Positions 15,137-57,832 of a DNA stretch of 64,000 nt are shown here, in pieces. How positions within the stretch are numbered: the stretch's first letter is position 1; every line of letters begins with the position of its first letter. The DNA comes from Flavobacteriales bacterium. Its GTDB lineage: Bacteria; Bacteroidota; Bacteroidia; UBA10329. Below the pieces are notes generated by a model that saw only the letters and a list, made by a program, of their open reading frames with translations, searched no databases and was not told the DNA's origin. The position numbers and the translations under genes were made by a program. The stretch spans positions 1 through 64,000 of the forward strand of contig WGMW01000049.1 in the NCBI GenBank assembly GCA_016124845.1, given 5' to 3'.

Positions 15137-16300
15137 ATGACCGAATTCATAGAAAGACCGATGTTCAATGAGGAACACAATATGTTCCGCCAATCCGTGC
15201 GTGATTTTGTAGCCCAGGAGATCGTACCGTACAATGCCGAATGGGAAAAGAAGAAAATGGTAACCCGCGAAAGCTGGGAGAAACTGGGTGCCAACGGATT
15301 TCTGTGCATGCAGGTGCCAGAGCAATATGGCGGCCTTGGAATTGAAGACTTCCGCTACAACATGATCTTTGCCGAGGAACTTAGCCGCGCAGGTGTTGCC
15401 GGTCCTGCGGTGGGGTATCCGTTGCACAGCGATATCGTGCTGCCATATATCCTCGATTTCGGTTCGGAGGAAATGAAAAAGAAGTGGGCTCCGAAGATGA
15501 TCAGCGGAGAGGCCATCGGTGCCATTGCCATGACCGAACCAGCCGCAGGAAGCGACCTTCAGGGCATGAAGTGCACCGCAGAGGACAAGGGCGATCACTA
15601 CCTGGTGAACGGTTCCAAGACCTTCATTACCAACGGATACTTGTGTGATATTGCCGTAACTGCCGTGAAAACCGACCCTGCGTTGGGTGCCAAAGGAATC
15701 AGTATGCTATTGATGGAGGCAGATATGGAAGGCTTTACCAAAGGTGAACCGTTCCACAAGATAGGATTGCATGCACAGGACACCTGCGAACTCTTCTTCG
15801 ATAACGTGAAAGTACCGAAGGAAAATCTGATCGGTAAGGAAGGCGAGGGGTTCAAGTATTTGATGACCGAGCTTGCGCAGGAACGTTTGGTTGTAGGAAT
15901 CGGTGCCATCGCTGCTGCCGAAGGAATTTTCTGGAAGACCGTACAGTACGTGAATGAGCGTAATGCGTTCGGTCAGGCGGTATCCCGTTTTCAGAACACG
16001 CGTTTCAAAATGGCAGAAATGGCCACGGAGATCACCAAGGCACGCGCCTTCCTTGATCAATGTGTGGTGCTGCATAACGAAGGAAAACTCGATGCAGCCA
16101 TGGCCAGCATGGTGAAGTTGACCTGCACCGAAGTTCAATGCCAAGTGGCAGATGAGTGTCTGCAATTGCATGGCGGCTACGGCTACATTTGGGAATATGA
16201 TGTGGCACGTGCTTGGGCCGATGCCCGTGTGCAGCGCATCTATGCAGGTACCAACGAGATCATGAAAGAACTCATTGCCCGTAAAGTGCTGGGCAAGTAA
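15137..16300 (+). CDS. Acyl-CoA dehydrogenase, long-chain/isovaleryl-type active site
   Basis: A 387-residue flavoprotein with the three acyl-CoA dehydrogenase domains: N-terminal helices, the middle strand domain with AMTEPAAGSDLQGM and NGSKTFITNG, and the C-terminal helical domain ending in RIYAGTNEIMKELIAR. The first step of fatty acid or branched-acid beta-oxidation is expected. Short/medium-chain enzymes keep their catalytic Glu in YEGT; here it is YAGT, and Glu262 (GAIAAAEG) occupies the position used by long-chain and isovaleryl enzymes. Its last 204 bp (16097-16300) recur downstream at 19481-19684, so the 3' end may be a recombined segment. Confidence 0.95.
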   Translation: MTEFIERPMFNEEHNMFRQSVRDFVAQEIVPYNAEWEKKKMVTRESWEKLGANGFLCMQVPEQYGGLGIEDFRYNMIFAEELSRAGVAGPAVGYPLHSDIVLPYILDFGSEEMKKKWAPKMISGEAIGAIAMTEPAAGSDLQGMKCTAEDKGDHYLVNGSKTFITNGYLCDIAVTAVKTDPALGAKGISMLLMEADMEGFTKGEPFHKIGLHAQDTCELFFDNVKVPKENLIGKEGEGFKYLMTELAQERLVVGIGAIAAAEGIFWKTVQYVNERNAFGQAVSRFQNTRFKMAEMATEITKARAFLDQCVVLHNEGKLDAAMASMVKLTCTEVQCQVADECLQLHGGYGYIWEYDVARAWADARVQRIYAGTNEIMKELIARKVLGK

Positions 16301-19480: not shown

Positions 19481-19684
19481 GCTATGGCCAGCATGGTGAA
19501 GTTGACCTGCACCGAAGTGCAATGCCAAGTGGCAGATGAGTGTCTGCAACTGCATGGTGGCTACGGCTACATTTGGGAATATGATGTGGCACGTGCTTGG
19601 GCCGATGCCCGTGTGCAGCGCATCTATGCTGGTACCAACGAGATCATGAAAGAACTCATTGCCCGTAAGGTGCTGGGCAAATAA
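19481..19684 (+). pseudogene. Truncated duplicate of the acyl-CoA dehydrogenase 3' end
   Basis: 204 bp matching 16097-16300 without gaps, from Ala in AMASMVK to the stop codon. I count seven differences and all are synonymous (for example GTT/GTG, TTG/CTG, GGC/GGT, GCA/GCT), so the encoded 67 residues are identical. It covers only the last helices and lacks the flavin and active-site parts. A GTG at 19469 could still start a 71-residue peptide coupled to the preceding gene. The all-synonymous pattern means both copies evolved as working genes, so one copy derives from a different lineage or from a former full-length paralogue. Confidence 0.95.
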
Positions 19685-19691
19685 TTCTGAA

Positions 19692-21461
19692 TTATTGAGA
19701 AACGGTGCGGAAGGTCTCTATGCGATTTTCCGCTCCGATAACCTGTATCAGGTAAACAGATCGGCTGGTAAGATCTGGAATCTGAGTTCGGGTTGCGTTC
19801 ACCTTTTCGGAAGAAATCAGTCTGCCATCAATCGCATACACATTCACCAAAGCGGGTAGAAGTGTGGCATCTATTTGCAGTTGATTCCCAAATAGTTTGA
19901 CCAGTTTTTCTTGCACCGTTTCTACAGGAACATCTGTGATGACCTCTTCGCAGGTTACGGGTTCGTTATTGTTGAAACGGGTTTCTGCCGGAATCAATTT
20001 CTGATTGATTGCCAACGGGTAACCGACCATCGGAAGCGTTTCTGAACTCAGGAAATCGGGCAGGCCGTTCTCATCCAAATACAACGAATTGAATGTCATG
20101 TTGGATGTATTGGATGGTGTGACGGTTTCATTGACGTTGTTCCCAAACTGATAGTGGCCGTTGCCGTTCACCAGAAACAGCCCGAACGGAAACCCAGAAT
20201 TGGTGATCTCGTTGCCAACCACATTCATTGAATCGGTCGGGGTGTTTCCATCCGAGAAGAAGCCGTACAGTTCAGCCCTGTTTCTGAAAAAGGTGTTGAA
20301 CGGCCCATTGCTTTCATGCGAAGCATCTACAACGATGTTCTGTATCGTGTTTCCTTCAAACAGGTTCAGGTAGGTGTAATTCCCGTGCAGCACCGCATCG
20401 CCAGCAGAGTTGGAAGGCAATGTGGATTCTTCCCAGAAAGGGTCGTGCGAATAGTTGTAGCCGAAAACATTGCCATTGGCACCTGCCTGCAAAAGCATGG
20501 AGTGACGCAAATGGTTGAAAACATTGTTCTGCGCTTTGCAGAAACTGCTGGCAAACTGGAAATTGACGCCATAACCCTGCCCACCGCCACCGTAGGCGAA
20601 CGCATGATGGAAATAGCAACCCTCCACTTGAATGTGAGCCGAACCATTGGTCTCAAGATGGGCGAAGTTGCAGTTCTCGCTTTCCACGTTTCGGATCACG
20701 CAATTAAAAGCATTGTTGACGTAGATGTTGCTCGTTTGTCCGCTTGAAGCATCTATTCTTTCAATTTTCAGGCATTCAATTCCAACTGCTCTGCGTGGTG
20801 TCAATTGCTTGATGTAAGGAGTGCGGGAAAGTGGATAGTGATGATTCAGCGGATCGGCCAACGCAAGCGTATTTCCATTGATGGCTTCAATTTCCACAAC
20901 CTGACCTAACGCACCATACGCCCATGACGAGAACATGTAATCCTCATCGAACTGATAGAGTCGGATGATGTCGCCAACGTTCAACGAACTCGCATCAGAC
21001 AGTTCGATCTCATAAGAACCTTTTACACCATCGGAAGAAAGTGAAAGCTGAGTTGAACTGATACTGCCATTGATGACAATGGCGTTTCCCGTTCCACCAA
21101 GGTCGAATTTCAAGGTTGTTCCGCTTGATTCTCCTTTCAGGAAAACGCTGTCAGGCAATGAAATGCCCGAAGTGAACAAATAATCCCCTTGCGGGAAATA
21201 GACGGTTCCGGCCGCTCCGCTCAGGCTTGCCAGCGCTGCGCTGAAAGCGGAGTTGCAACTGTTGCTTCCAGTATTGTCCGCTCCAAAATCCAAAACCGAA
21301 ACTTGGTTGCTGGGAGCTTGTATTGTCGTGGTGTTGCCTGCGTTTTCCCACGTGGTGACGCGTTCCGGTTCAAAAACCTGCGCGACCGAATCTGCAAAAG
21401 AGAACAAGACCAGACCGAGTGCAAGAAAAATTCTAAAGTTGGCGAGTATGCCTTTTTTCAT
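19692..21461 (-). CDS. T9SS-secreted right-handed beta-helix protein (pectate-lyase-like)
   Basis: A 589-residue secreted protein: signal peptide (cleavage near SVAQ-VF), then VSVLDFGADNTGSN and AAGTVYFPQGDYLF, the standard opening of pectate-lyase superfamily/GH28-like proteins, then long beta-helix rungs with many Asn (CVIRNVESENCNF). The C-terminal 75 residues (VYAIDGRLISSEKV ... RSVYLIQVIG) form a type A sorting domain for the type IX system. It probably binds or cleaves a polysaccharide outside the cell; no catalytic residues can be named. Its stop codon is 8 bp from the dehydrogenase fragment, convergent. Confidence 0.85.
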   Translation of the reverse strand: MKKGILANFRIFLALGLVLFSFADSVAQVFEPERVTTWENAGNTTTIQAPSNQVSVLDFGADNTGSNSCNSAFSAALASLSGAAGTVYFPQGDYLFTSGISLPDSVFLKGESSGTTLKFDLGGTGNAIVINGSISSTQLSLSSDGVKGSYEIELSDASSLNVGDIIRLYQFDEDYMFSSWAYGALGQVVEIEAINGNTLALADPLNHHYPLSRTPYIKQLTPRRAVGIECLKIERIDASSGQTSNIYVNNAFNCVIRNVESENCNFAHLETNGSAHIQVEGCYFHHAFAYGGGGQGYGVNFQFASSFCKAQNNVFNHLRHSMLLQAGANGNVFGYNYSHDPFWEESTLPSNSAGDAVLHGNYTYLNLFEGNTIQNIVVDASHESNGPFNTFFRNRAELYGFFSDGNTPTDSMNVVGNEITNSGFPFGLFLVNGNGHYQFGNNVNETVTPSNTSNMTFNSLYLDENGLPDFLSSETLPMVGYPLAINQKLIPAETRFNNNEPVTCEEVITDVPVETVQEKLVKLFGNQLQIDATLLPALVNVYAIDGRLISSEKVNATRTQIPDLTSRSVYLIQVIGAENRIETFRTVSQ

Positions 21462-45957: not shown

Positions 45958-45990
45958 CATAAATCGACAATCGTCTATTGTCAATCGCAA

Positions 45991-46186
45991 ATCAAGCTTT
46001 AGCCGTCTTCAAAACCTTCTCCGCAATACTCTTACCCGTATAAGATTGATCGCATTTGGCGAGGTCTTCGGGCGTGTCTTCAAAAACAATGGTTCCTCCA
46101 TTCTTGCCGCCTTCAGAGCCAAGGTCGATTACGTGGTCGGCACATTTGATCACATCAGGGTGGTGCTCCACCAGAATGATGGAATG
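45991..46186 (-). pseudogene. Truncated duplicate of the uvrA 3' end
   Basis: 196 bp aligned without gaps to 47411-47606, the end of the intact uvrA gene. I count 18 differences, giving about 91 percent identity; six of 64 codons change the residue (for example Pro to Ser in DLGSEGG, Gly to Asp in FEDTPED). It starts at [12 protein letters not shown] and keeps the stop codon. The frame upstream of 46186 is unrelated, so the product would lack every ATP-binding motif except the final part. The Fic gene lies between this copy and uvrA. Confidence 0.95.
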
Positions 46187-46305: not shown

Positions 46306-47391
46306 ATGGCTGAATTCGATAGAAAGACACCTTACAACGACCTGCCTTTACTTCCGCCCAACTGCGCGCTGGAAACAACCAAAGTGTTACGCAAGACAAT
46401 TACCGCAAGTCGTGCCTTGGCACAACTCAACGGAGCCATTGTCAATCTGCCCAATCCACAATTGTTTCTGGATACGGTTCACTTGCAAGAAGCGAAAAGC
46501 AGTTCGGAAATTGAGAACATCATTACCACGAACGATGACCTTTACAAGGCGTTGGTCGCTGACAGGAAATTTGCAGACCCGGCATCCAAGGAAGTGCTCA
46601 ATTACAAGGAAGCACTTTGGGTCGGTCTGGAACGCATGGAAACTCGCCCGTTCATCACAACCAATCTTTGTATTGAATTGATGCAATGCATCAAACAGAA
46701 TTCATCGGAAATCCGTGCAGTATCGGGTACTGCATTGGTCGATGCCAAGGGCGAGACCGTATATACTCCGCCATCCGGCAAAGATGTGATCAGTTCCAAA
46801 ATGAGCAATCTGGAAAAATTCATAAATGAAGACGAAACCTTCGACCCGTTAGTGAAAATGGCATTGATGCATTATCAGTTCGAGGCCATTCACCCATTTG
46901 CAGATGGAAACGGAAGAACAGGTAGAATTCTACTTCTGCTGTATCTTAAACTGAGCGGACTGCTTAGCGTTCCGGCCATTTATCTGAGCGAGTACATTAT
47001 TCAGAACAAGGCTGCGTATTATATAAACCTACGTGGAGTAACCGAAAAGCAGGATTGGGAGAACTGGATACTCTATATCTTGGACATGGTGGAGGTTACT
47101 TCATTCAAAGGCTTGAAGAGATTGGAAAAGATAAACCAAATGATGACGGCCATGACCGAAGAAGTAAAGGCTACTTTACCTGTGGTCTATAGCAAGGAAT
47201 TGATCGAGGTACTTTTCCGCCTACCTTATACCAAGCGACAGCACCTCATTGACGCTGGTTTGGGAACACCAAAAACAGTTGGCAACTACCTGATCCAATT
47301 GGAAAAAACGGGCTTTCTCCGGTCGGAAAAAGTGGGCAAGGAAAAACTATATCTGAACTTCAGGTTAATGGATGTTCTGACCAATGATTGA
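46306..47391 (+). CDS. Fic-family AMP-transferase
   Basis: A 361-residue protein with the Fic core HPFADGNGRTGR (196-207), the catalytic His at 196. The N-terminal inhibitory helix carries SSSEIEN (Ser66, Glu70, Asn71), the [S/T]xxxE[G/N] motif of class II Fic proteins, so it is autoinhibited in cis. A winged-helix segment follows at the C-terminus (PKTVGNYLIQLEKTGFLRSEKVG). Fic proteins attach AMP to target proteins; the target here is unknown. It converges on uvrA, 20 bp between stop codons, and lies between uvrA and the uvrA fragment, so it was probably acquired. Confidence 0.95.
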   Translation: MAEFDRKTPYNDLPLLPPNCALETTKVLRKTITASRALAQLNGAIVNLPNPQLFLDTVHLQEAKSSSEIENIITTNDDLYKALVADRKFADPASKEVLNYKEALWVGLERMETRPFITTNLCIELMQCIKQNSSEIRAVSGTALVDAKGETVYTPPSGKDVISSKMSNLEKFINEDETFDPLVKMALMHYQFEAIHPFADGNGRTGRILLLLYLKLSGLLSVPAIYLSEYIIQNKAAYYINLRGVTEKQDWENWILYILDMVEVTSFKGLKRLEKINQMMTAMTEEVKATLPVVYSKELIEVLFRLPYTKRQHLIDAGLGTPKTVGNYLIQLEKTGFLRSEKVGKEKLYLNFRLMDVLTND

Positions 47392-47411
47392 GCGGAAAAG
47401 GAAGGTTCAGA

Positions 47412-50222
47412 TCAAGCCTTTTCCCTCTTCAAAACCTTCTCCGCAATACTCTTGGCCGTGTAAGACTGTTCGCATTTGGCGAGGTCTTCGGGAGTGCCTT
47501 CAAACACAATGGTTCCGCCATTCTTGCCGCCTTCGGGGCCAAGGTCAATTACGTGGTCGGCACATTTGATCACATCGGGGTGGTGTTCCACCAGAATGAT
47601 GGAATGGCCGTTGTCCAATAGCGCGTTGAAGGCTTTCAGCAGTTTGTGAATGTCGTGGAAGTGCAGCCCTGTGGTCGGCTCATCGAAGATGAAAAGTGTG
47701 TTGCCTGCGTTCTTTCCTTTGGTAAGGAACGAGGCCAGTTTGATGCGTTGGGCTTCACCGCCCGAAAGCGTGCTGCTACTCTGTCCAAGTTGCACATAAC
47801 CCAATCCGACTTCCTGCAATGGAGCAATTTTGCGCGCCACTTTCGGGTCGTGCTCGCTGAAGAATTCCATGGCCTCATCTACGGTCATGCTCAGCACATC
47901 GTGGATGGTCTTGTCCTTGAATTTGATCTCCAGCACCTCCTGCTTGAACCGCTGTCCTTGGCAGCTTTCGCACTTCATCACAATATCGGCCATGAACTGC
48001 ATCTCGATCTTAACCGTGCCTTCACCTTCGCACACTTCGCAGCGGCCACCTGCCACGTTAAAGGAGAAATGCTTGGGCTTGTAACCGCGCAATTGCGCTG
48101 CTTTTTGGTCGGAGAACAGCGAGCGGATTTCGTCATACGCCTTGATGTATGTGACAGGGTTGGAACGTGACGAACGTCCGATCGGGTCTTGATCCACGAA
48201 CTCCACATCCGCAATCTTATCGATGTTGCCATCCAAGCGTTCGAACTGACCCGTTTTGCCCGCGAACCCACCGAAACGCTTTTTCAAAGAAGGGTAAAGG
48301 ATGCTTTTCATCAGCGTACTCTTTCCCGAACCGCTCACGCCCGTAATGACGGTAAGGCATCCTAACGGGAACGAAACACTGACGTTCTTTAGATTGTGTT
48401 GCCGCGCTCCAACGATATGTAGTTTGCCTTTTGCCTTTCTACGCTTTTCAGGAACAGGAATTTCCAGCTTGCCGCTGAGATAACCTGTGGTCAGCGTGTC
48501 GGCACCTTTCATCATGTCATCCAACGTGCCTTGAAAAACCACTTCGCCACCGTGCGTTCCCGCTTCGGGTCCGATGTCCACGATCATATCCGCAGCGAGC
48601 ATAATGTCTTCATCGTGTTCAACTACAATTACCGTATTGCCGATGTCGCGCAAGCGTTGCAGAATGGAAATGAGCCTTTCGGTGTCTTTCGGATGCAATC
48701 CAATACTCGGCTCATCCAGAATGTACATGGAACCGACCAGCGAACTTCCCAACGAACTCGCCAGACTGATTCGCTGACTTTCACCACCCGAAAGGGTATT
48801 CGATTGGCGGTTGAGCGTGAGATAACCCAATCCGACATCCTTCATAAAACCCAACCGTGTGGTGACTTCCTTCAGAATGCGTTTGGAAATTTCATGTTCG
48901 GTATCGGTAAGCTCCACTTTATCGAAGAAATCTGCCAACTCTGAAATTGGAAGCAAGACAAGGTCCGACAAACTCTTTCCACCGATCTTGACGTAGTTCG
49001 CATCCTTGCGGAGTTTGGTTCCGCGGCATTCGGGGCAATCGGTCTTTCCGCGATAGCGCGAAAGCATAACGCGGTATTGAATTTTATAACTGTTCTCTTC
49101 CAGCATTCGGAAGAACGCGTGTAGTCCTTCAAAGTATTGGTTGCCGTCCCAAAGCAGTTGAATTTGCTCTTCGGTGAGTTCGTAAATCGGTCGATGTATC
49201 GGGAAATCGAATTTATTGGCCGAGCGGATGAGCTGGTCTTTGAACTTGCTCATGCTTTCACCACGCCAGCAGACCACACCATCTTCGTAAATGCTCAGAC
49301 TGCGGTCGGGCATCACCAGGTCTTCGTCAATCCCGATGATGTTACCAAAACCTTCGCAACGCTTACACGCTCCGTACGGATTATTGAAGCTGAAAAAGTG
49401 AACCGATGGTTCTTCGAAACGCATGCCATCCGCTTCAAACTCAGCGCTGAAATGCGTTTCATCCGACTTTCCATCCAATTCAGAAATGACGAAACAGCGG
49501 TTGTTGCCTTCAGCTAAGGCCGTACGAACGGCTTCCGCTACACGCGTATTTTCCTTTGAACCATCCGCCACAAATCGGTCGATGAGAACGGAAAGTTCAT
49601 TGTCTTCCTTTTTGACGATTCCGTCAGGAATCTTATCCAAACGAACCACCTCGCCATTCAACTGAACTCGTGTGTAACCTTGATGCTGTAGAATGTCGAT
49701 GCGCTTTTCCAATGCCTTTTCGGGCATTGTCCCAAACGGGGCGAAGACCATCACCTTGGTTCCTTCCTTCAATTTCAGGATGGCTTCGGTAATAGAGTCA
49801 ATCGTATGTCGCTTCACTTCCTTTCCTGAAACAGGGGAGAAGGTGCGGCCAATGCGAGCGTAAAGCAGTTTGAGGTAATCGTAGATTTCCGTGTTGGTAC
49901 CAACCGTTGAGCGCGGGTTGCTTGATTTCACCTGCTGATTGATGGCAATCGCTGGAGAAACGCCCAGAATGCTATCTACTTCGGGTTTATCGATCTTACC
50001 TAAGAACTGACGCGCGTAAGCAGAAAGGCTTTCAATGTAGCGTCTCTGTCCTTCAGCATAAAGTGTGTCGAATGCTAACGTAGATTTTCCCGAACCTGAA
50101 AGTCCTGTGATGACGATCAATTTCTTGTGCGGCAACACAAGATCGATGTTCTTCAAGTTGTGCAGCCGCGCCCCTTTTATAATGATGTTGTGCTTGGGAT
50201 TCGGGGCTTCAGTTCGGGACAT
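47412..50222 (-). CDS. uvrA: Excinuclease ABC subunit UvrA
   Basis: A 936-residue protein with two ABC ATPase modules (Walker [13 protein letters not shown] and [11 protein letters not shown]), two signature motifs (LSGGESQRI and LSGGEAQRI) and zinc-finger cysteines ([31 protein letters not shown]). It finds DNA lesions with UvrB in nucleotide excision repair. The frame stays open to 50315, but the start at 50222 matches the family and follows a -7-like box. The last 196 bp recur as a fragment beyond the Fic gene, so this 3' end may be recombined. Confidence 0.97.
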
Positions 50223-51143: not shown

Positions 51144-51392
51144 ATGCTAAATGTCCGTTTGAATAAAGAAATTGAGAAAAAGTTGGAGAGTTACAGCCAA
51201 CGGATGAATCTTTCCAAATCCTCGGTGGTCAAAGAAGCCTTGATTGCTTATTTGAGTCAATCAGATATTGATCATACACCATTTGAATTAGGCGAAGATC
51301 TTTTTGGAGCCGATGCAAGCGGCAATACAGATTCGTCTACTACTTACAGATCCAAACTGAAAGACAAGCTTCGTGAAAAGCATTCTCATTGA
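51144..51392 (+). CDS. VapB-like antitoxin (ribbon-helix-helix)
   Basis: An 82-residue protein with an N-terminal ribbon-helix-helix DNA-binding fold (LNVRLNKEIEKKLESYSQRMNLSKSSVVKEALIAYL) and a C-terminal tail rich in polar and charged residues (RSKLKDKLREK) that would neutralise the toxin. It overlaps the PIN toxin gene by 20 bp, as is usual for coupled pairs, and an operator palindrome lies upstream. Confidence 0.92.
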   Translation: MLNVRLNKEIEKKLESYSQRMNLSKSSVVKEALIAYLSQSDIDHTPFELGEDLFGADASGNTDSSTTYRSKLKDKLREKHSH

Positions 51393-51786
51393 TGCAGGTC
51401 CGTTGATTGCCCTTTTTGACAGGAGCGATAAGTACCATTTGAAAGCTCTTCAGTTCATAAAGGATTTTGAAGGAGAACTTTGGACAACCTGGCCTGTGAT
51501 CACGGAAGCAAGTTACATGCTTGATTTCAGCACTAAGGCTCAACTGAGTTTGCTTTCTTGGATTGAGCGGGGTGGATTGCATCTTGTGGATCTTAATGAA
51601 TCGCAGGTTTTTCGATTTACAGAATTGATGGACAAGTTTGATGATGTGCCAATGGATCTGGCAGATGCCTCATTGATCGTTGCTTCCGAATTGAAGAATT
51701 ATAAGGAGGTGGCGAGCATTGATTCGGATTTCTACATTTATCGAGATGTACGGAATCAATACCTAACAAATGTCTTTGAGGTCTGA
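51373..51786 (+). CDS. VapC-like toxin (PIN domain)
   Basis: A 137-residue PIN-domain ribonuclease with the acidic metal site Asp7 (LIDAGPLIAL), Glu45 (ITEAS), Asp98 (LADASLIVA) and Asp117/Asp119 (SIDSDF). VapC toxins cut specific RNAs, often tRNA, and stop growth until antitoxin returns. The start is GTG inside the antitoxin gene. The 3' end overlaps the next gene by 17 bp, so the phosphatase gene may be read from the same message. Confidence 0.93.
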   Translation: MKSILIDAGPLIALFDRSDKYHLKALQFIKDFEGELWTTWPVITEASYMLDFSTKAQLSLLSWIERGGLHLVDLNESQVFRFTELMDKFDDVPMDLADASLIVASELKNYKEVASIDSDFYIYRDVRNQYLTNVFEV

Positions 51787-52823: not shown

Positions 52824-54083
52824 TCAATTGTCCGTATACACGCGGCCTTGCCGCCACATGTCAACTGCGTTGTACCAGTTGCTTTTGTAAAGAGGCGATC
52901 GGTCCAATCGGAAATCATTGTCGCTGAACGGGGTTTCTGTTTTGAAGAAGGTCATTCCAAGTGACGAAGGATTGTCTTCCTCGCCATAGATCCAATGTTC
53001 GGAATTGGTGTTTTTGTAAATGATATTGGGCGGCCCGAAGATCAGGTAGATCAATCCGCGGTCGGATTTCCAACCTTCCACGTATGAAGTAAAGAACGTG
53101 TTCGAATCTTCAACACGCGAATAGTATTTCTGAATAAGCAGCTTGGCGCGATCGGGATTTCCCGCAAGATTGAGCCAAAAGTGATCCACTTCCACTTTCT
53201 GGTTGTCCGATTCTGTGATCTTCTTGAATTCCGAATTGCTGTTCAAGAAACGTAGCGGGGCAACAAGATCGGCCACGTCTTTCACCTCGGGGAACGTTTC
53301 CTTGAAGCGCAAAACCGTGAAACCATCTTTCGTACTATCCGAAACCTGAACATGGTACATGCCTTTCTTAGGAAAGGAGACGGCCGTTCCCAACTGAATC
53401 TCGAAAATGCTATCGGCCTGAAAGTCGAAAACCTTCGGTGTTTCCACCGAGAAAGGTGGTTTGGGCAGCGGAATGTCGCGTTCGTAATACCGCACCTTCG
53501 CGTTGGTTTTTCCACTTACGTGATGAATGACCACTTGCTCATCTTTTCGGATGTAATTGCGTGATAGCGGATAATTTTCACCCAGCAGATTCATGGTGAA
53601 GAACTGACGGCAGTTCGGGTTGCTTCGATCTATTTGGAAATAGCGAAGCACGTGCGAGTTCCTGCGCAGGTCGGTAAGATCCACTTTCAGCAGTGCCTGT
53701 TTCACCTTGCTTGGTTTCAATTGCAGAATGCCGCTGATGGTCTTTCCGTTCATGACGAGTGAACTATCAGCAAACACCACCACCGAACTGTCGATGAGCA
53801 GTTTGCTTTCCAGTTGCGTGTAAACCTCGTAGCGGATGCGGAAGTATGATGAATAGAAGCCGCTGGCCGAATTGTAGAGATACAGCAGTTCGTTGGAGTT
53901 GATGCGGAAGTGGAGTTCGGTTACGCTGTCGTTCCTGTGCAGTACGTTGAATTCAGGATGAAGGAACGAAGCATCCTTGTCGTACAGGTACGATAGGTTC
54001 TGATTGGAAATGCGCTCGGTGTAGCAGCCCGAGGCGAAAACAACCGCTCCGACAAGAAGAAATAGCAGCTTACTGATCTTCAT
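52824..54083 (-). CDS. GWxTD-domain lipoprotein
   Basis: A 419-residue protein with a lipobox (VVFASGC). The C-terminal half carries the GWxTD-domain pattern: YVEGWKSDRGLIYLIFGPPNIIYKN, then EHWIYGEED and FRLDRSPLYKSNWYNAVDMWRQGRVY. In this copy the motif is GWKSD. The family is widespread in Bacteroidota and of unknown function, found at the envelope. It overlaps rmuC by 14 bp, so both are read together. Confidence 0.9.
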   Translation of the reverse strand: MKISKLLFLLVGAVVFASGCYTERISNQNLSYLYDKDASFLHPEFNVLHRNDSVTELHFRINSNELLYLYNSASGFYSSYFRIRYEVYTQLESKLLIDSSVVVFADSSLVMNGKTISGILQLKPSKVKQALLKVDLTDLRRNSHVLRYFQIDRSNPNCRQFFTMNLLGENYPLSRNYIRKDEQVVIHHVSGKTNAKVRYYERDIPLPKPPFSVETPKVFDFQADSIFEIQLGTAVSFPKKGMYHVQVSDSTKDGFTVLRFKETFPEVKDVADLVAPLRFLNSNSEFKKITESDNQKVEVDHFWLNLAGNPDRAKLLIQKYYSRVEDSNTFFTSYVEGWKSDRGLIYLIFGPPNIIYKNTNSEHWIYGEEDNPSSLGMTFFKTETPFSDNDFRLDRSPLYKSNWYNAVDMWRQGRVYTDN

Positions 54084-55392
54084 CCTCCAAACCTAAGATT
54101 TCGTTGGGAAGTTGCTTGTTCGCTCTTGCACCCATTTTTTTCAATTCTTCCGCTCTACGCACAAGATTGCCAGAACCCTCTGACAACTTTTTCATGCCTT
54201 CGTCATACACTTTTTGGGTTGATTGCAAGCGATCCCCGATCTTCTGCATGTCTTCAATAAACCCGACAAACTTATCGTACAACCTACCGCTTTTCTCGGC
54301 AATGTCAAGCGCATTCTTGGTCTGTCGGTCCTGTTTCCAAATGGATGCAACCGTGCGCAGCGTGGCGAGCAGAGTAGAAGGACTCACGATCACAATGCGT
54401 TTGTCCCAAGCAAAATTGAACAGCTCATCATCCGCCCTGATAGACGCGCTGAAACTGCTTTCAATGGGCATGAACATCAGCACGAATTCAGGGCTGTTCA
54501 ATCCCTTTCCCGTGTGGTAGTTCTTCTCGAAAAGTTCGTTGATGTGCCGTTTTACCGATGTGACGTGTTCCTTCAAATGCCGCTCCTGATCTTCGGGTTC
54601 ATCCGCATTCACAAACCGCTCATATGCAACAAGTGAAACCTTGCTGTCAATGATGATCTGTTTGTCGTCTGGCAATTGAATGATGACATCAGGTTGAATG
54701 CGGCTTCCCACATCATTCAGTGTGGATTGCTGTGTGAAGTATTCCTCGCCTTTGATCAGTCCAGAATTTTCAAGGATTCGTTCCAAGATCAATTCGCCCC
54801 AGTTTCCTTGCTTTTTGCTGTCGCCTTTCAGTGCGGTGGTAAGGTTGTGCGCTTCTTCGCTGATCTTCTTGTTCAGTTCGTGAAGCACTTTTATCTCACC
54901 TTTTAGCGAAGCACGTTCCTTCTGTTCGTTATCGTATTTCTCTTCAACTTTCTTCTCAAACTTCTCAATGTTCTCGCGAAGCGGTTTCAGAATGGTTTCG
55001 AGATTTTCCTTGTTCTGATCGGTGAATTTCTTCGATTTCTCATCCAAGATCTTGTTGGCCAGATTCTCGAATTCCGTGTTGAAGCGTTTGTTCAGTTCCT
55101 CAAACTCTTTCCGTTGCTCGGCCTGTCGTTGTTCCTGATCTTTGAAATGTGTGCGGGCGGAAGCAAGGTTCTTCTCGGCATCAAATAACCGCTCGCGTGT
55201 TTCATTCAGGTCGGCTTTCAGAACATCCCTTTCTTCCGATATGCGCCTTTCCGCTTCGGCCAATGCCGCCTTTTCAAGCTTCACTTTCTCCAACTCACCG
55301 TTGTCTGCAACAGCCGTTGTTCCCCGCTTTCCAAGCAAAAAACCAATGGCGGCACCGACCAACAATCCAACTATTAAAAAAGCAAATTCCAT
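54070..55392 (-). CDS. rmuC: DNA recombination protein RmuC
   Basis: A 440-residue protein with an N-terminal membrane segment (FAFLIVGLLVGAAIGFLLG), a long coiled coil (about residues 35-190) and the RmuC core: KKQGNWGELILERILENSGL, PDVIIQLPDDKQIIIDSKVSLVAYERF, FMPIESSF and VSPSTLLATLRTVASIW. RmuC limits rearrangements at short inverted repeats. That role is of interest because this window is rich in palindromic repeats. It overlaps the GWxTD gene by 14 bp. Confidence 0.95.
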   Translation of the reverse strand: MEFAFLIVGLLVGAAIGFLLGKRGTTAVADNGELEKVKLEKAALAEAERRISEERDVLKADLNETRERLFDAEKNLASARTHFKDQEQRQAEQRKEFEELNKRFNTEFENLANKILDEKSKKFTDQNKENLETILKPLRENIEKFEKKVEEKYDNEQKERASLKGEIKVLHELNKKISEEAHNLTTALKGDSKKQGNWGELILERILENSGLIKGEEYFTQQSTLNDVGSRIQPDVIIQLPDDKQIIIDSKVSLVAYERFVNADEPEDQERHLKEHVTSVKRHINELFEKNYHTGKGLNSPEFVLMFMPIESSFSASIRADDELFNFAWDKRIVIVSPSTLLATLRTVASIWKQDRQTKNALDIAEKSGRLYDKFVGFIEDMQKIGDRLQSTQKVYDEGMKKLSEGSGNLVRRAEELKKMGARANKQLPNEILGLEDEDQ

Positions 55393-55436: not shown

Positions 55437-55491
55437 TCAGAAATAACTCACAATTCCGAAGTGGATTTTCCAGCGTGGAAATCGACTCGGG
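55437..55491 (-). pseudogene. Truncated duplicate of the BamA-like gene 3' end
   Basis: 55 bp matching 56075-56129 (the end of the intact gene) apart from one substitution, one missing base and one extra base. The last 10 codons and stop (KIHFGIVSYF) are unchanged; the two indels put the part before it out of frame (SRFPRW instead of PIDFRAG). It lies 45 bp from the rmuC start and just before the antitoxin gene. Confidence 0.92.
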
Positions 55492-55529
55492 ATCGGTTAC
55501 CTTTGATACTTACCTGAAGATTTTTAGAA

Positions 55530-55778
55530 ATGAGTTTAGAAACGATCAAAATCAATCTTACCAAGCAGTTGCTCGCTGTTGAGGAGGAGTCGGTACTGAT
55601 GGAGATCAAGTCAATTCTGGATCGTGAGGTGATCGCTGCTTATACGATTGATGGGAAACCGATGAGTGTTGAAGAATACAACAGTTCGTTGAAAAGTGCG
55701 GAAGAAGACCTTTCTGAAGGTCGTGTTACCGATTCGTCTGACCTCAAGGAAGAAATGAAGTCATGGCGCAGGTCCTAA
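55530..55778 (+). CDS. Antitoxin paired with ParE/RelE toxin
   Basis: An 82-residue acidic protein with the pattern of Bacteroidota addiction-module antitoxins: a helical N-terminus (LTKQLLAVEEESVLMEIKSILDREV), then AYTIDGKPMSVEEYNSSLKSAEEDLSEGRVT and EEMKSWRR. It overlaps the toxin gene by 16 bp. Together with the toxin it fills the interval between the BamA-like gene and a fragment of that gene's 3' end, so it was probably acquired. It has no obvious DNA-binding domain of its own beyond the N-terminal helices. Confidence 0.85.
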   Translation: MSLETIKINLTKQLLAVEEESVLMEIKSILDREVIAAYTIDGKPMSVEEYNSSLKSAEEDLSEGRVTDSSDLKEEMKSWRRS

Positions 55779-56059
55779 GGGTCGAGTGGACCGATACTGC
55801 CAAACATGCCCTTCGAAATATCTATGAATTTCATGCCGAACACGCTGAGGAATCGGCTTTCAGGATCGTGACGGAGATCGTTGAAAAGGCTGATTCCATC
55901 ATTTACATGAAGCAGTTTCAAGTGGATGATATCAACCCAGATTATCGAAGGATAGTGGTCGGATATTACAAGGTGCTTTACAGGGTGCAAGATTCGGTAG
56001 TAAAGGTGATGAATGTGTTTCCCACAAGATCGGATTCTCGAAAGCTGGAACGGCTATGA
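55763..56059 (+). CDS. ParE/RelE-family toxin
   Basis: A 98-residue protein with the ParE/RelE fold: VEWTDTAKHALRNIYEFHAEHAEESAF (helices), NPDYRRIVVGYYKVLYRVQDSVVKVMNVFPTRSD (strands with the RelE-type RR and F-x-R elements). Members either cleave mRNA on ribosomes or block gyrase; sequence alone does not say which. Its stop codon lies 15 bp from the convergent BamA-like gene. Confidence 0.9.
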   Translation: MAQVLRVEWTDTAKHALRNIYEFHAEHAEESAFRIVTEIVEKADSIIYMKQFQVDDINPDYRRIVVGYYKVLYRVQDSVVKVMNVFPTRSDSRKLERL

Positions 56060-56074
56060 CTTTCTGCGATCACC

Positions 56075-57832
56075 TCAGAAATAACTCACAATTCCGAAGT
56101 GGATCTTTCCAGCGCGGAAATCGATCGGGTTTTTGAACTGTTTCCCTAAAGCATAATTGAGCGAGAACACACCGATCTTGGTAAAGAACGAGATGCCCAA
56201 ACCGAAACCGAACGGGCGGTCCGTAATACGTTTGTTGGTCGCGCGGTTCTCATAATACGCGCCATCAAAAAAGGCAAACAGGTAGCTGTTCTGATCCAGA
56301 AGAAAACGGTATTCGATGGTTCCGATGCTGAACATGGTGGCGTAGATTGCTTCCTCATCAAAACCACGTAGCGTTTTAAGACCACCAATTCGGAACGCCT
56401 CACTTTCAAACAGATTCTGGCTTCGCATGTAACCACCGTTCACCTTTATCATGATTGTGCTCCGATTGGGAATGGGAACAAAATAAGACGCTTGCAGAAC
56501 CGCGCTCAGCTGGAATGAACTCAGCTTCAATCCATCGTACCGACTGATCTCTACCGTAGCATCAGGAATGATCTTCTTCGCGCCCGCGCTGGCCTCGGCA
56601 TATAGGTCGAAACCTTTCCGCGGATTGAGTCGGTAATCCAATCGCTGCATCTTGTAACCGAAACCGTAGAGTTGGGTTTTCGAATCCACGTTATCTGGGT
56701 TCAGCGTGGTGGTGGAGGTAAGCGTGGAAGGAGCCAACACGTTTGTGGAACGGATGTCGGCAAACACCTTAATGTAATCGTTGCCGATGAGATGGTATTG
56801 CAATCCTGCAACACCTTGCAGGTTGAGGTAAAGCGAATCACGTTTGTAGAGCTGAAACGTGCCATCCACACCAAAACCCGTGTTGAACAGGAACGGGTAA
56901 GCAAGATGGATATTCAAGTTCTGGGTCCGTGGTTGTGTTTTCTTCCACGAGAGGTCGATGAGTTCGCCACGTTTAAAAGCGCTTAGCAGTTTGATGGTGA
57001 GTTGCCCTGTAATAAGCACGCTTCCAGGCTTTTCGCTGCTGGGAAGCACACCCAGAATCCCATCAAATTGGCTCGCGCGTTTCTTGTCGAGGTACATATA
57101 GATGTCCGCTTTCCCATTCTTAAAAACCACTTCGGGCGATTTGGTCTCGTTCACGAAAGCGATCTCTTTTACACGGGTGGAGATTGGTCTGATTCTACTT
57201 TCATTGTAAACCGATTTGGGTCTGATTCCCAGATAGTTCTGCAGATATTTGGGAACAACGCGTGCCGTACCTTTAATAATGATGCTATCAATAATGAATT
57301 GCTGATGCTTGTCCATGTTCAGCTTGGCCGAGAGCTGATTTCCTTGCAACGTAATGCTGTCCAGTTCTACATGCGTGAACGGATAACCACGGTTTTCATA
57401 AAAGCGAATGATACGTTTCTTGAGGCCGTTCAATCGCTTACCGCTCATGCTCGCGTCCTCAAATTGGTTGTCTCTGAATCCGACCTTTCGCAGCACATCT
57501 TCAGGTACATTTCCGTGGTCGATAGTGCCGAAACTGTATGGTTTTCCAATGTGCAGTTTGGCGATCACCGTGTCTTTTTTCCACGTCTGTTCATCCACGC
57601 CAGCTTCCGAATATCCATTCTCGTGCAGCGCGGTCATCAAACCTTGAAGCGCTGTCAGCGCGGTCATCGAATCGGCATAGAATTCCTTCAGCCCACCCAA
57701 GCGGTTCAGTTTGCTTGGTTTGATGGACTCTTCCTTTTGTTCGATGATGAGACGAACGCGACTCTGAGCTACGGCACTGGCCGTGTTCAGAAAGAACAGC
57801 GCAAGAAGCATTATGCGGTAAAGTCGCTTCAC
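56075..57832 (-). CDS. BamA/TamA-family outer-membrane protein
   Basis: A 585-residue protein: signal peptide (cleavage near AVAQ-SR), two or three POTRA-like domains (about residues 25-240; GTIDHGNVPEDVLRKV and IDSIIIKGTARVVPKYL) and a 16-strand Omp85 barrel with the conserved substrate loop GLKTLRGFDEEAI and a C-terminal Phe (SYF). It is shorter than BamA, like TamA-type proteins in Bacteroidota, and probably helps insert proteins or lipids into the outer membrane. Its 3' end recurs as a 55-bp fragment beyond the toxin-antitoxin genes. Confidence 0.9.
   Translation of the reverse strand: MKRLYRIMLLALFFLNTASAVAQSRVRLIIEQKEESIKPSKLNRLGGLKEFYADSMTALTALQGLMTALHENGYSEAGVDEQTWKKDTVIAKLHIGKPYSFGTIDHGNVPEDVLRKVGFRDNQFEDASMSGKRLNGLKKRIIRFYENRGYPFTHVELDSITLQGNQLSAKLNMDKHQQFIIDSIIIKGTARVVPKYLQNYLGIRPKSVYNESRIRPISTRVKEIAFVNETKSPEVVFKNGKADIYMYLDKKRASQFDGILGVLPSSEKPGSVLITGQLTIKLLSAFKRGELIDLSWKKTQPRTQNLNIHLAYPFLFNTGFGVDGTFQLYKRDSLYLNLQGVAGLQYHLIGNDYIKVFADIRSTNVLAPSTLTSTTTLNPDNVDSKTQLYGFGYKMQRLDYRLNPRKGFDLYAEASAGAKKIIPDATVEISRYDGLKLSSFQLSAVLQASYFVPIPNRSTIMIKVNGGYMRSQNLFESEAFRIGGLKTLRGFDEEAIYATMFSIGTIEYRFLLDQNSYLFAFFDGAYYENRATNKRITDRPFGFGLGISFFTKIGVFSLNYALGKQFKNPIDFRAGKIHFGIVSYF

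Follow-up and report, generated by a model that had tools for sequence, protein, structure and literature searches.

How does a toxin–antitoxin pair come to stand between a bacterial gene and a second copy of that gene's own 3′ end? How toxin modules enter chromosomes is an open question, and an excess of such duplications at toxin modules compared with ordinary genes gives a handle on it. The arrangement that raises the question lies in a 64,000-nucleotide stretch of a Flavobacteriales genome (contig WGMW01000049.1; the whole stretch is referred to as the window, and the genome as G000), and consists of the following parts:

54070–55392, minus strand: rmuC, the ancestral downstream neighbour of the BamA-like gene (RmuC, PF02646, 1e-107)
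55437–55491, minus strand: distal copy of the 3′ end of the BamA-like gene, 55 bp including the stop codon, non-coding
55530–55778, plus strand: putative antitoxin of 82 aa (open reading frame; 16-bp overlap with the start of the toxin gene)
55763–56059, plus strand: ParE-type toxin of 98 aa, convergent with the BamA-like gene (ParE_toxin, PF05016, 1e-7)
56075–57832, minus strand: intact BamA-like gene of the Omp85 superfamily (Omp85/POTRA protein; PF01103, 4e-11; PF07244, 1e-9; orthologs in the genus)
56075–56129, minus strand: proximal repeat copy, the last 55 bp of the BamA-like gene (repeat alignment)

A first-pass annotation of this DNA held that the end of the BamA-like gene recurs, as a 55-bp piece with indels, on the far side of a ParE-type pair, and alignment bears this out. 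The segments at 55437–55491 and 56075–56129 have the same orientation and differ by one substitution and two single-base gaps in a gapped alignment. Both begin at the stop codon, and the flanks beyond the repeat are unrelated. Because the single-base indels disrupt its frame, the distal copy is non-coding. Of the 16 ParE loci in the genome, no other comes close to this one in the strength of its flanking direct repeat, which scores 45 against 19 for the second best and 10–14 for the rest; the inverted comparison made at the BamA locus as a control scores 12. The PF05016 match spans residues 7–90 of the toxin, and the small partner gene, located upstream and overlapping, gives the layout of a ParDE/RelBE-type type II pair, whose toxin domain is of the ParE/RelE superfamily. 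The annotation's identification of the pair is thus supported by a family match for the toxin and by position only for the antitoxin: the 82-aa product has no family match in Pfam or NCBIfam, and its neutralisation of toxicity is inferred. A search of 85k genomes for close relatives of the toxin gave no confirmed match. The two small genes are the sole content between the repeats, with no recombinase gene among them.

Genomes in which the site is empty reveal how the locus was built. In G004, from the same genus, the BamA gene is followed by a spacer of ~45–50 bp and then by rmuC, with no cargo, and in G003, also of the genus, the site is empty and the contig shows the same spacer as far as the rmuC start codon. 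The empty-site relatives have no second copy of the BamA end. The first-pass annotation had proposed looking for BamA beside rmuC without the toxin pair, and comparing the junctions, and both comparisons went its way: the sequence that follows the fragment in the window aligns with the BamA–rmuC spacers of G003 and G004, and the ancestral spacer has therefore been kept by the fragment and not by the intact gene. Two further genomes have a filled site. G005 carries an orthologous pair (toxin 63% and partner 73% identical to those of the window), which is intact, and a strongly decayed BamA tail copy with the same spacer behind it. In G053, which belongs to another family, a different toxin pair in the opposite orientation lies between BamA and rmuC, and is followed by a 37-bp copy of G053's own BamA end, on the downstream side of BamA.

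These filled sites bear on the possibility that the fragment is a functional site of the toxin pair, such as a promoter, operator or terminator, that came to resemble a gene end by selection or chance. The fragment's position, 38 bp upstream of the antitoxin start, would suit that role, but the pair in G053 is reversed and has the tail copy at its other end, the fragment in G005 has decayed while the pair is intact, and unrelated gene ends take the same role at other loci. We consider a functional site scarcely credible, and rejected a regulatory reading of the BamA fragment on the orientation in G053 and the decay in G005. The first-pass annotation had accepted that a conserved regulatory site would refute it; the reversed orientation in G053 and the lack of a second copy in empty-site relatives mean that this did not come about.

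That the ParE pair is an inserted cassette accompanied by a gene-end duplication is, in our judgement, close to certain, and the insertion is recent. The fragment in G000 has bases specific to the BamA gene of its own species; barring gene conversion, the insertion is therefore younger than the split from G005. Sequence identity places G004 and G005 nearer to each other than either is to G000. The presence of the pair therefore does not fit the species relations in the simplest way, and calls for either repeated gain or precise loss.

Two other genes in the window, uvrA and an acyl-CoA dehydrogenase gene, also have duplicated 3′ ends:

45988–46186, minus strand: distal copy of the uvrA 3′ end (repeat alignment)
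46306–47391, plus strand: Fic protein, the cargo at uvrA (Fic_N, Fic and SoFic-like domains; PF13784, PF02661, PF21248)
47408–47606, minus strand: proximal copy of the uvrA 3′ end (199 bp, 90% identical to 45988–46186)
16097–16300, plus strand: proximal copy of the acyl-CoA dehydrogenase 3′ end (204 bp, 97% identical to 19481–19684)
19481–19684, plus strand: distal copy of the acyl-CoA dehydrogenase 3′ end (repeat alignment)

The first-pass annotation had assigned both genes the layout of the BamA locus, with an intact gene, convergent cargo and a 3′ fragment in the orientation of the gene. Both repeats are real, but the likeness is incomplete at the dehydrogenase, where only the first gene of the 3.2-kb cargo is convergent and there is no toxin module. 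Empty uvrA sites occur in three genomes (G002, G004 and G007) and empty dehydrogenase sites in two (G004 and G007); in these two, the dehydrogenase is directly followed by the gene that comes after the distal copy in the window (19692–21461). A DUF2283/DUF4258 pair and, after it, a copy of the uvrA tail stand behind uvrA in G003 and G005, and directly beyond that copy G003 has one more pair, of the ParE family. No recombinase was found between the uvrA repeats in the window, and a class-wide scan for the uvrA tail revealed, among the matches listed, further tail copies in the genus only. At the locus L085 (G003:C210, 2720–4435), where two toxin pairs are stacked behind uvrA (DUF2283/DUF4258, a uvrA tail copy and then a ParE-family toxin), the stop codon of this toxin's gene touches that of the tail.

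Further instances come from a survey in which 1.23 Mb (28%) of the genome was read as stretches and direct repeats were listed at 250–6000 bp spacing. Two tail insertions have addiction-type cargo: that at gatC carries a restriction-modification system (a cytosine methyltransferase and an Eco47II-type endonuclease) and that at dnaG an HTH–PIN pair. A reductase gene with a duplicated end has an AraC gene and small ORFs as cargo, and in a weaker case, at a hydrolase gene, the cargo includes a gene with a polyvalent-protein-kinase domain. A HipA-type gene inserted upstream of a recQ-like gene mirrors the tail cases: here it is the recQ 5′ end that is duplicated, over 83 bp (G000:C33, 84277–84359 and 85980–86062).

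Several other features of this genome are recorded in their own right. An 85-bp direct repeat (G000:C38, 5436–5521 and 6971–7055) closely flanks an SLC13-type transporter gene, which is the same form with a non-toxin cargo. Two neighbouring, otherwise different long genes (G000:C33, 39737–41807 and 53668–55005) have common 3′ ends of 209–278 bp with ~92% identity; these ends are likely secretion-signal domains, and could have arisen by gene conversion or by the insertion route discussed here. The several overlapping short repeats at G000:C54 (22775–23686), where a gene assigned by eye as REP-associated-transposase-like stands beside a formiminotransferase gene, are a different repeat system. 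In the window, a small toxin pair at 51144–51786 (a weak DUF6290 match and a PIN toxin, PF01850) lies between sigma-factor-like and PAP2-like membrane genes, with no flanking direct repeat of at least 22 bp in a window-wide scan. Direct repeats of 42–48 bp at the window edge (1–42 and 766–807, spacing 765 bp; 139–186 and 925–972, spacing 786 bp), one of which holds the palindrome-like GAGACGCGATGCATCGCGTC, are possibly a tandem or REP-like array.

The extent of the pattern beyond this genome was gauged from loci of defined families in 59 relatives from the class, with Fic loci taken from a wider class sample. For each gene, 1.5 kb on either side was aligned, and a direct repeat score of at least 20 was counted as positive. 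Flanking direct repeats were detected at 24 of 77 ParE loci, 7 of 30 PIN loci, 4 of 18 Fic loci and 5 of 29 C5 methyltransferase loci, with 1 of 48 and 0 of 28 for the control acetyltransferase and glyoxalase families. Pooled, toxin and restriction-modification loci give 40/154 versus 1/76 for the controls (Fisher p = 3e-7), and inverted repeats reach the threshold at none of the 154. Loci that share a genome are not entirely independent, the genome of the window contributes its own ParE loci to the sample, and the control families are of a housekeeping-like kind, not accessory genes matched to the modules. Among the relatives sampled, duplications of this kind are a general feature of the surroundings of toxin and restriction-modification modules, and they are not confined to gene 3′ ends. 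About two thirds of the repeats around toxin modules fail the strict gene-tail test, and many look intergenic; at the Fic loci L162, L168 and L169 the repeats are at intergenic sites. Targeting of 3′ ends alone was dropped as an explanation, given these Fic cases and the recQ 5′-end case with HipA. Two toxin loci amid small ORFs, L296 (G002:C123) and L335 (G019:C69), have direct repeats of 51 and ~370 bp, respectively, which could be integron-like cassettes.

At 33 loci compared in detail of sequence (ParE, Fic and methyltransferase), the repeats range from 23 to 220 bp and have no sequence in common, and therefore derive from the target and not from the element. This result also bears on site-specific recombination of the integrase or cassette type (tyrosine recombinase att sites, Xer-exploiting elements or integron attC cassettes), with the gene tail serving as the attachment site. 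At integrase attachment sites, it is typical for the element to restore the 3′ end of the gene, and a few of the repeats are hairpin-like (L189). However, the 33 loci have no common core in their repeats, on which ground element-encoded ends or a shared att core were rejected, and the BamA and uvrA cases have no recombinase between the repeats. Site-specific recombination is consequently most improbable to us.

A stronger alternative is transposition-like insertion with long target duplication, in which an unknown nuclease or recombinase acting in trans would, through widely spaced nicks or copying of the target, duplicate 20–220 bp of host sequence without needing homology in the donor. Repeats of variable length that differ at each locus agree with this explanation, as do those at intergenic sites, which general target-duplicating insertion explains as well as a route anchored by homology does. 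The known restriction-modification cases are also described in this way (PMC3874152, PMC1643837). The gene-end repeats speak against it: they cluster at the stop codon, the differences between their copies are enriched in synonymous changes, and different lineages have orthologous cassettes at one and the same gene. Among 13 strict gene-tail cases, the repeat ends at most 12 bp from the stop codon in 11, with the two exceptions stopping 28 bp before it and 47 bp beyond it; this is where homology between the genes of two species would end. Gene and tail copies in 12 cases differ by 84 synonymous and 49 nonsynonymous changes, a synonymous share of 63% compared with ~40–46% expected for a duplicate made in place. 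The expectation is our own estimate, for a duplicate that decays freely beside a gene that changes only silently, with a quarter to 30% of random changes being silent. Together, the repeat ends near the stop codon and the mainly synonymous differences point to incoming DNA that recombined through its conserved gene end. Insertion with target duplication is a live possibility that falls well short of probable; for repeats away from gene ends in particular, a recombinase that duplicates its target could still be at work.

Individual cases give a closer view of the two copies. Those of the dehydrogenase differ at 7 positions, with 7 synonymous and 0 nonsynonymous changes, and at several variant sites one copy matches G004 and the other G005. 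The uvrA tail in G003 is a mosaic with 1 difference in its first half and 21 in its second, the pattern to be expected when both copies have a resident upstream part and one of them has a donor-derived downstream part. Judged from the sequences alone, and with no conspecific empty site for comparison, these two cases suggest two alleles rather than copies that were identical at birth, as duplication of the target in place would make them. Loci L265 and L267 have a gradient of differences in the same direction as uvrA in G003, and over all cases the direction is balanced (6 versus 7); with this mixed result, a universal 5′-to-3′ divergence gradient is not claimed as proof of one-sided recombination. 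Gene conversion between the copies could mimic several of these signs.

We lean, cautiously, towards a homology-anchored route rather than a target-duplicating recombinase. The occurrence of different cassettes at one site, with an orthologous ParE pair in G000 and G005 and a different, opposite pair in G053, favours this route, but the mechanism is inferred and not shown, because the donor arrangement (the cassette behind the gene, without a tail copy) was not found in any genome examined and there are no conspecific genomes. In this process, DNA from a related bacterium, with the toxin pair already just behind the donor's own BamA gene, would recombine within the conserved 3′ end of the resident BamA gene. 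The opposite end of the imported DNA would be joined slightly upstream in the resident gene, in a one-sided event that is homology-anchored and illegitimate. The resident gene would thereby gain an equivalent new end and stay intact, with its old end left as a fragment. Equally, a circle of cassette and gene tail, excised by recombination between the copies, could integrate by one crossover and give the same product. Because the copies are directly repeated, a later recombination event between them could excise the cassette exactly and leave the gene restored. We propose that toxin and restriction-modification modules are over-represented because cells that lose them die, so that their insertions persist.

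Extending the homology-anchored route, we put forward tentatively, as an idea not yet probable, that chromosomal toxin–antitoxin modules of these bacteria spread as minimal cassettes that have no recombinase and find their address by homology. Such cassettes would carry, or be linked to, the 3′ end of a conserved host gene, enter the same gene in other species through host recombination, leave that gene intact and be able to exit precisely. If true, this would explain in general how solitary toxin modules become part of chromosomes. About a third of the sampled ParE loci in the whole class bear a visible insertion scar, and the scars link toxin modules with restriction-modification systems through a common route of insertion. 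From the scars one can also read the boundaries of the elements, the alleles of the empty sites and how old each insertion is relative to others, which makes the mechanism testable by genome comparison and by simple marker experiments.

The closest known system comes from restriction-modification genes, for which insertion with long target duplication has been described (Nobusato et al, 2000; Furuta et al, 2010, as cited in PMC3031569, PMC3874152 and PMC1643837). As far as those citing texts describe it, an addiction-type cargo there likewise lies between direct duplications of host sequence of variable length, on the order of 100 bp, and the target is single-copy in genomes without the insertion. 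The present loci satisfy two of its criteria, with single-copy empty sites in close relatives and a long, variable host duplication on both sides (55, 199 and 204 bp in the window), and the gatC case in this same genome is itself a restriction-modification system. Set against the same second-hand descriptions, the loci here differ in that the cargo is mostly type II toxin–antitoxin pairs, and in that the 3′ ends of core genes make up many of the duplications, which terminate close to the stop codon and differ from the gene mainly by synonymous changes. A review that covers both toxin–antitoxin and restriction-modification systems mentions long target duplication, in the portions available, for the latter only (PMC3874152). 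We found no report in the open literature of such insertion for toxin–antitoxin modules, although subscription papers were outside the search and this absence is no proof.

Homology-facilitated illegitimate recombination is known experimentally in other phyla (PMC3240628), and transformation can make duplications or merodiploids (PMC3784515). As in the route favoured here, incoming DNA is anchored by homology at one end and joined illegitimately at the other, and partial duplications are possible; unlike here, however, the process has not been shown in these bacteria or for toxin modules. It has been discussed for the toxin/immunity arrays of Type VI effectors, in which modules are likewise added downstream of a conserved anchor and older remnants are shifted downstream (PMC5361080). 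In those arrays, the anchor and remnants are the toxin cluster's own genes, whereas at the loci described here they are unrelated core genes.
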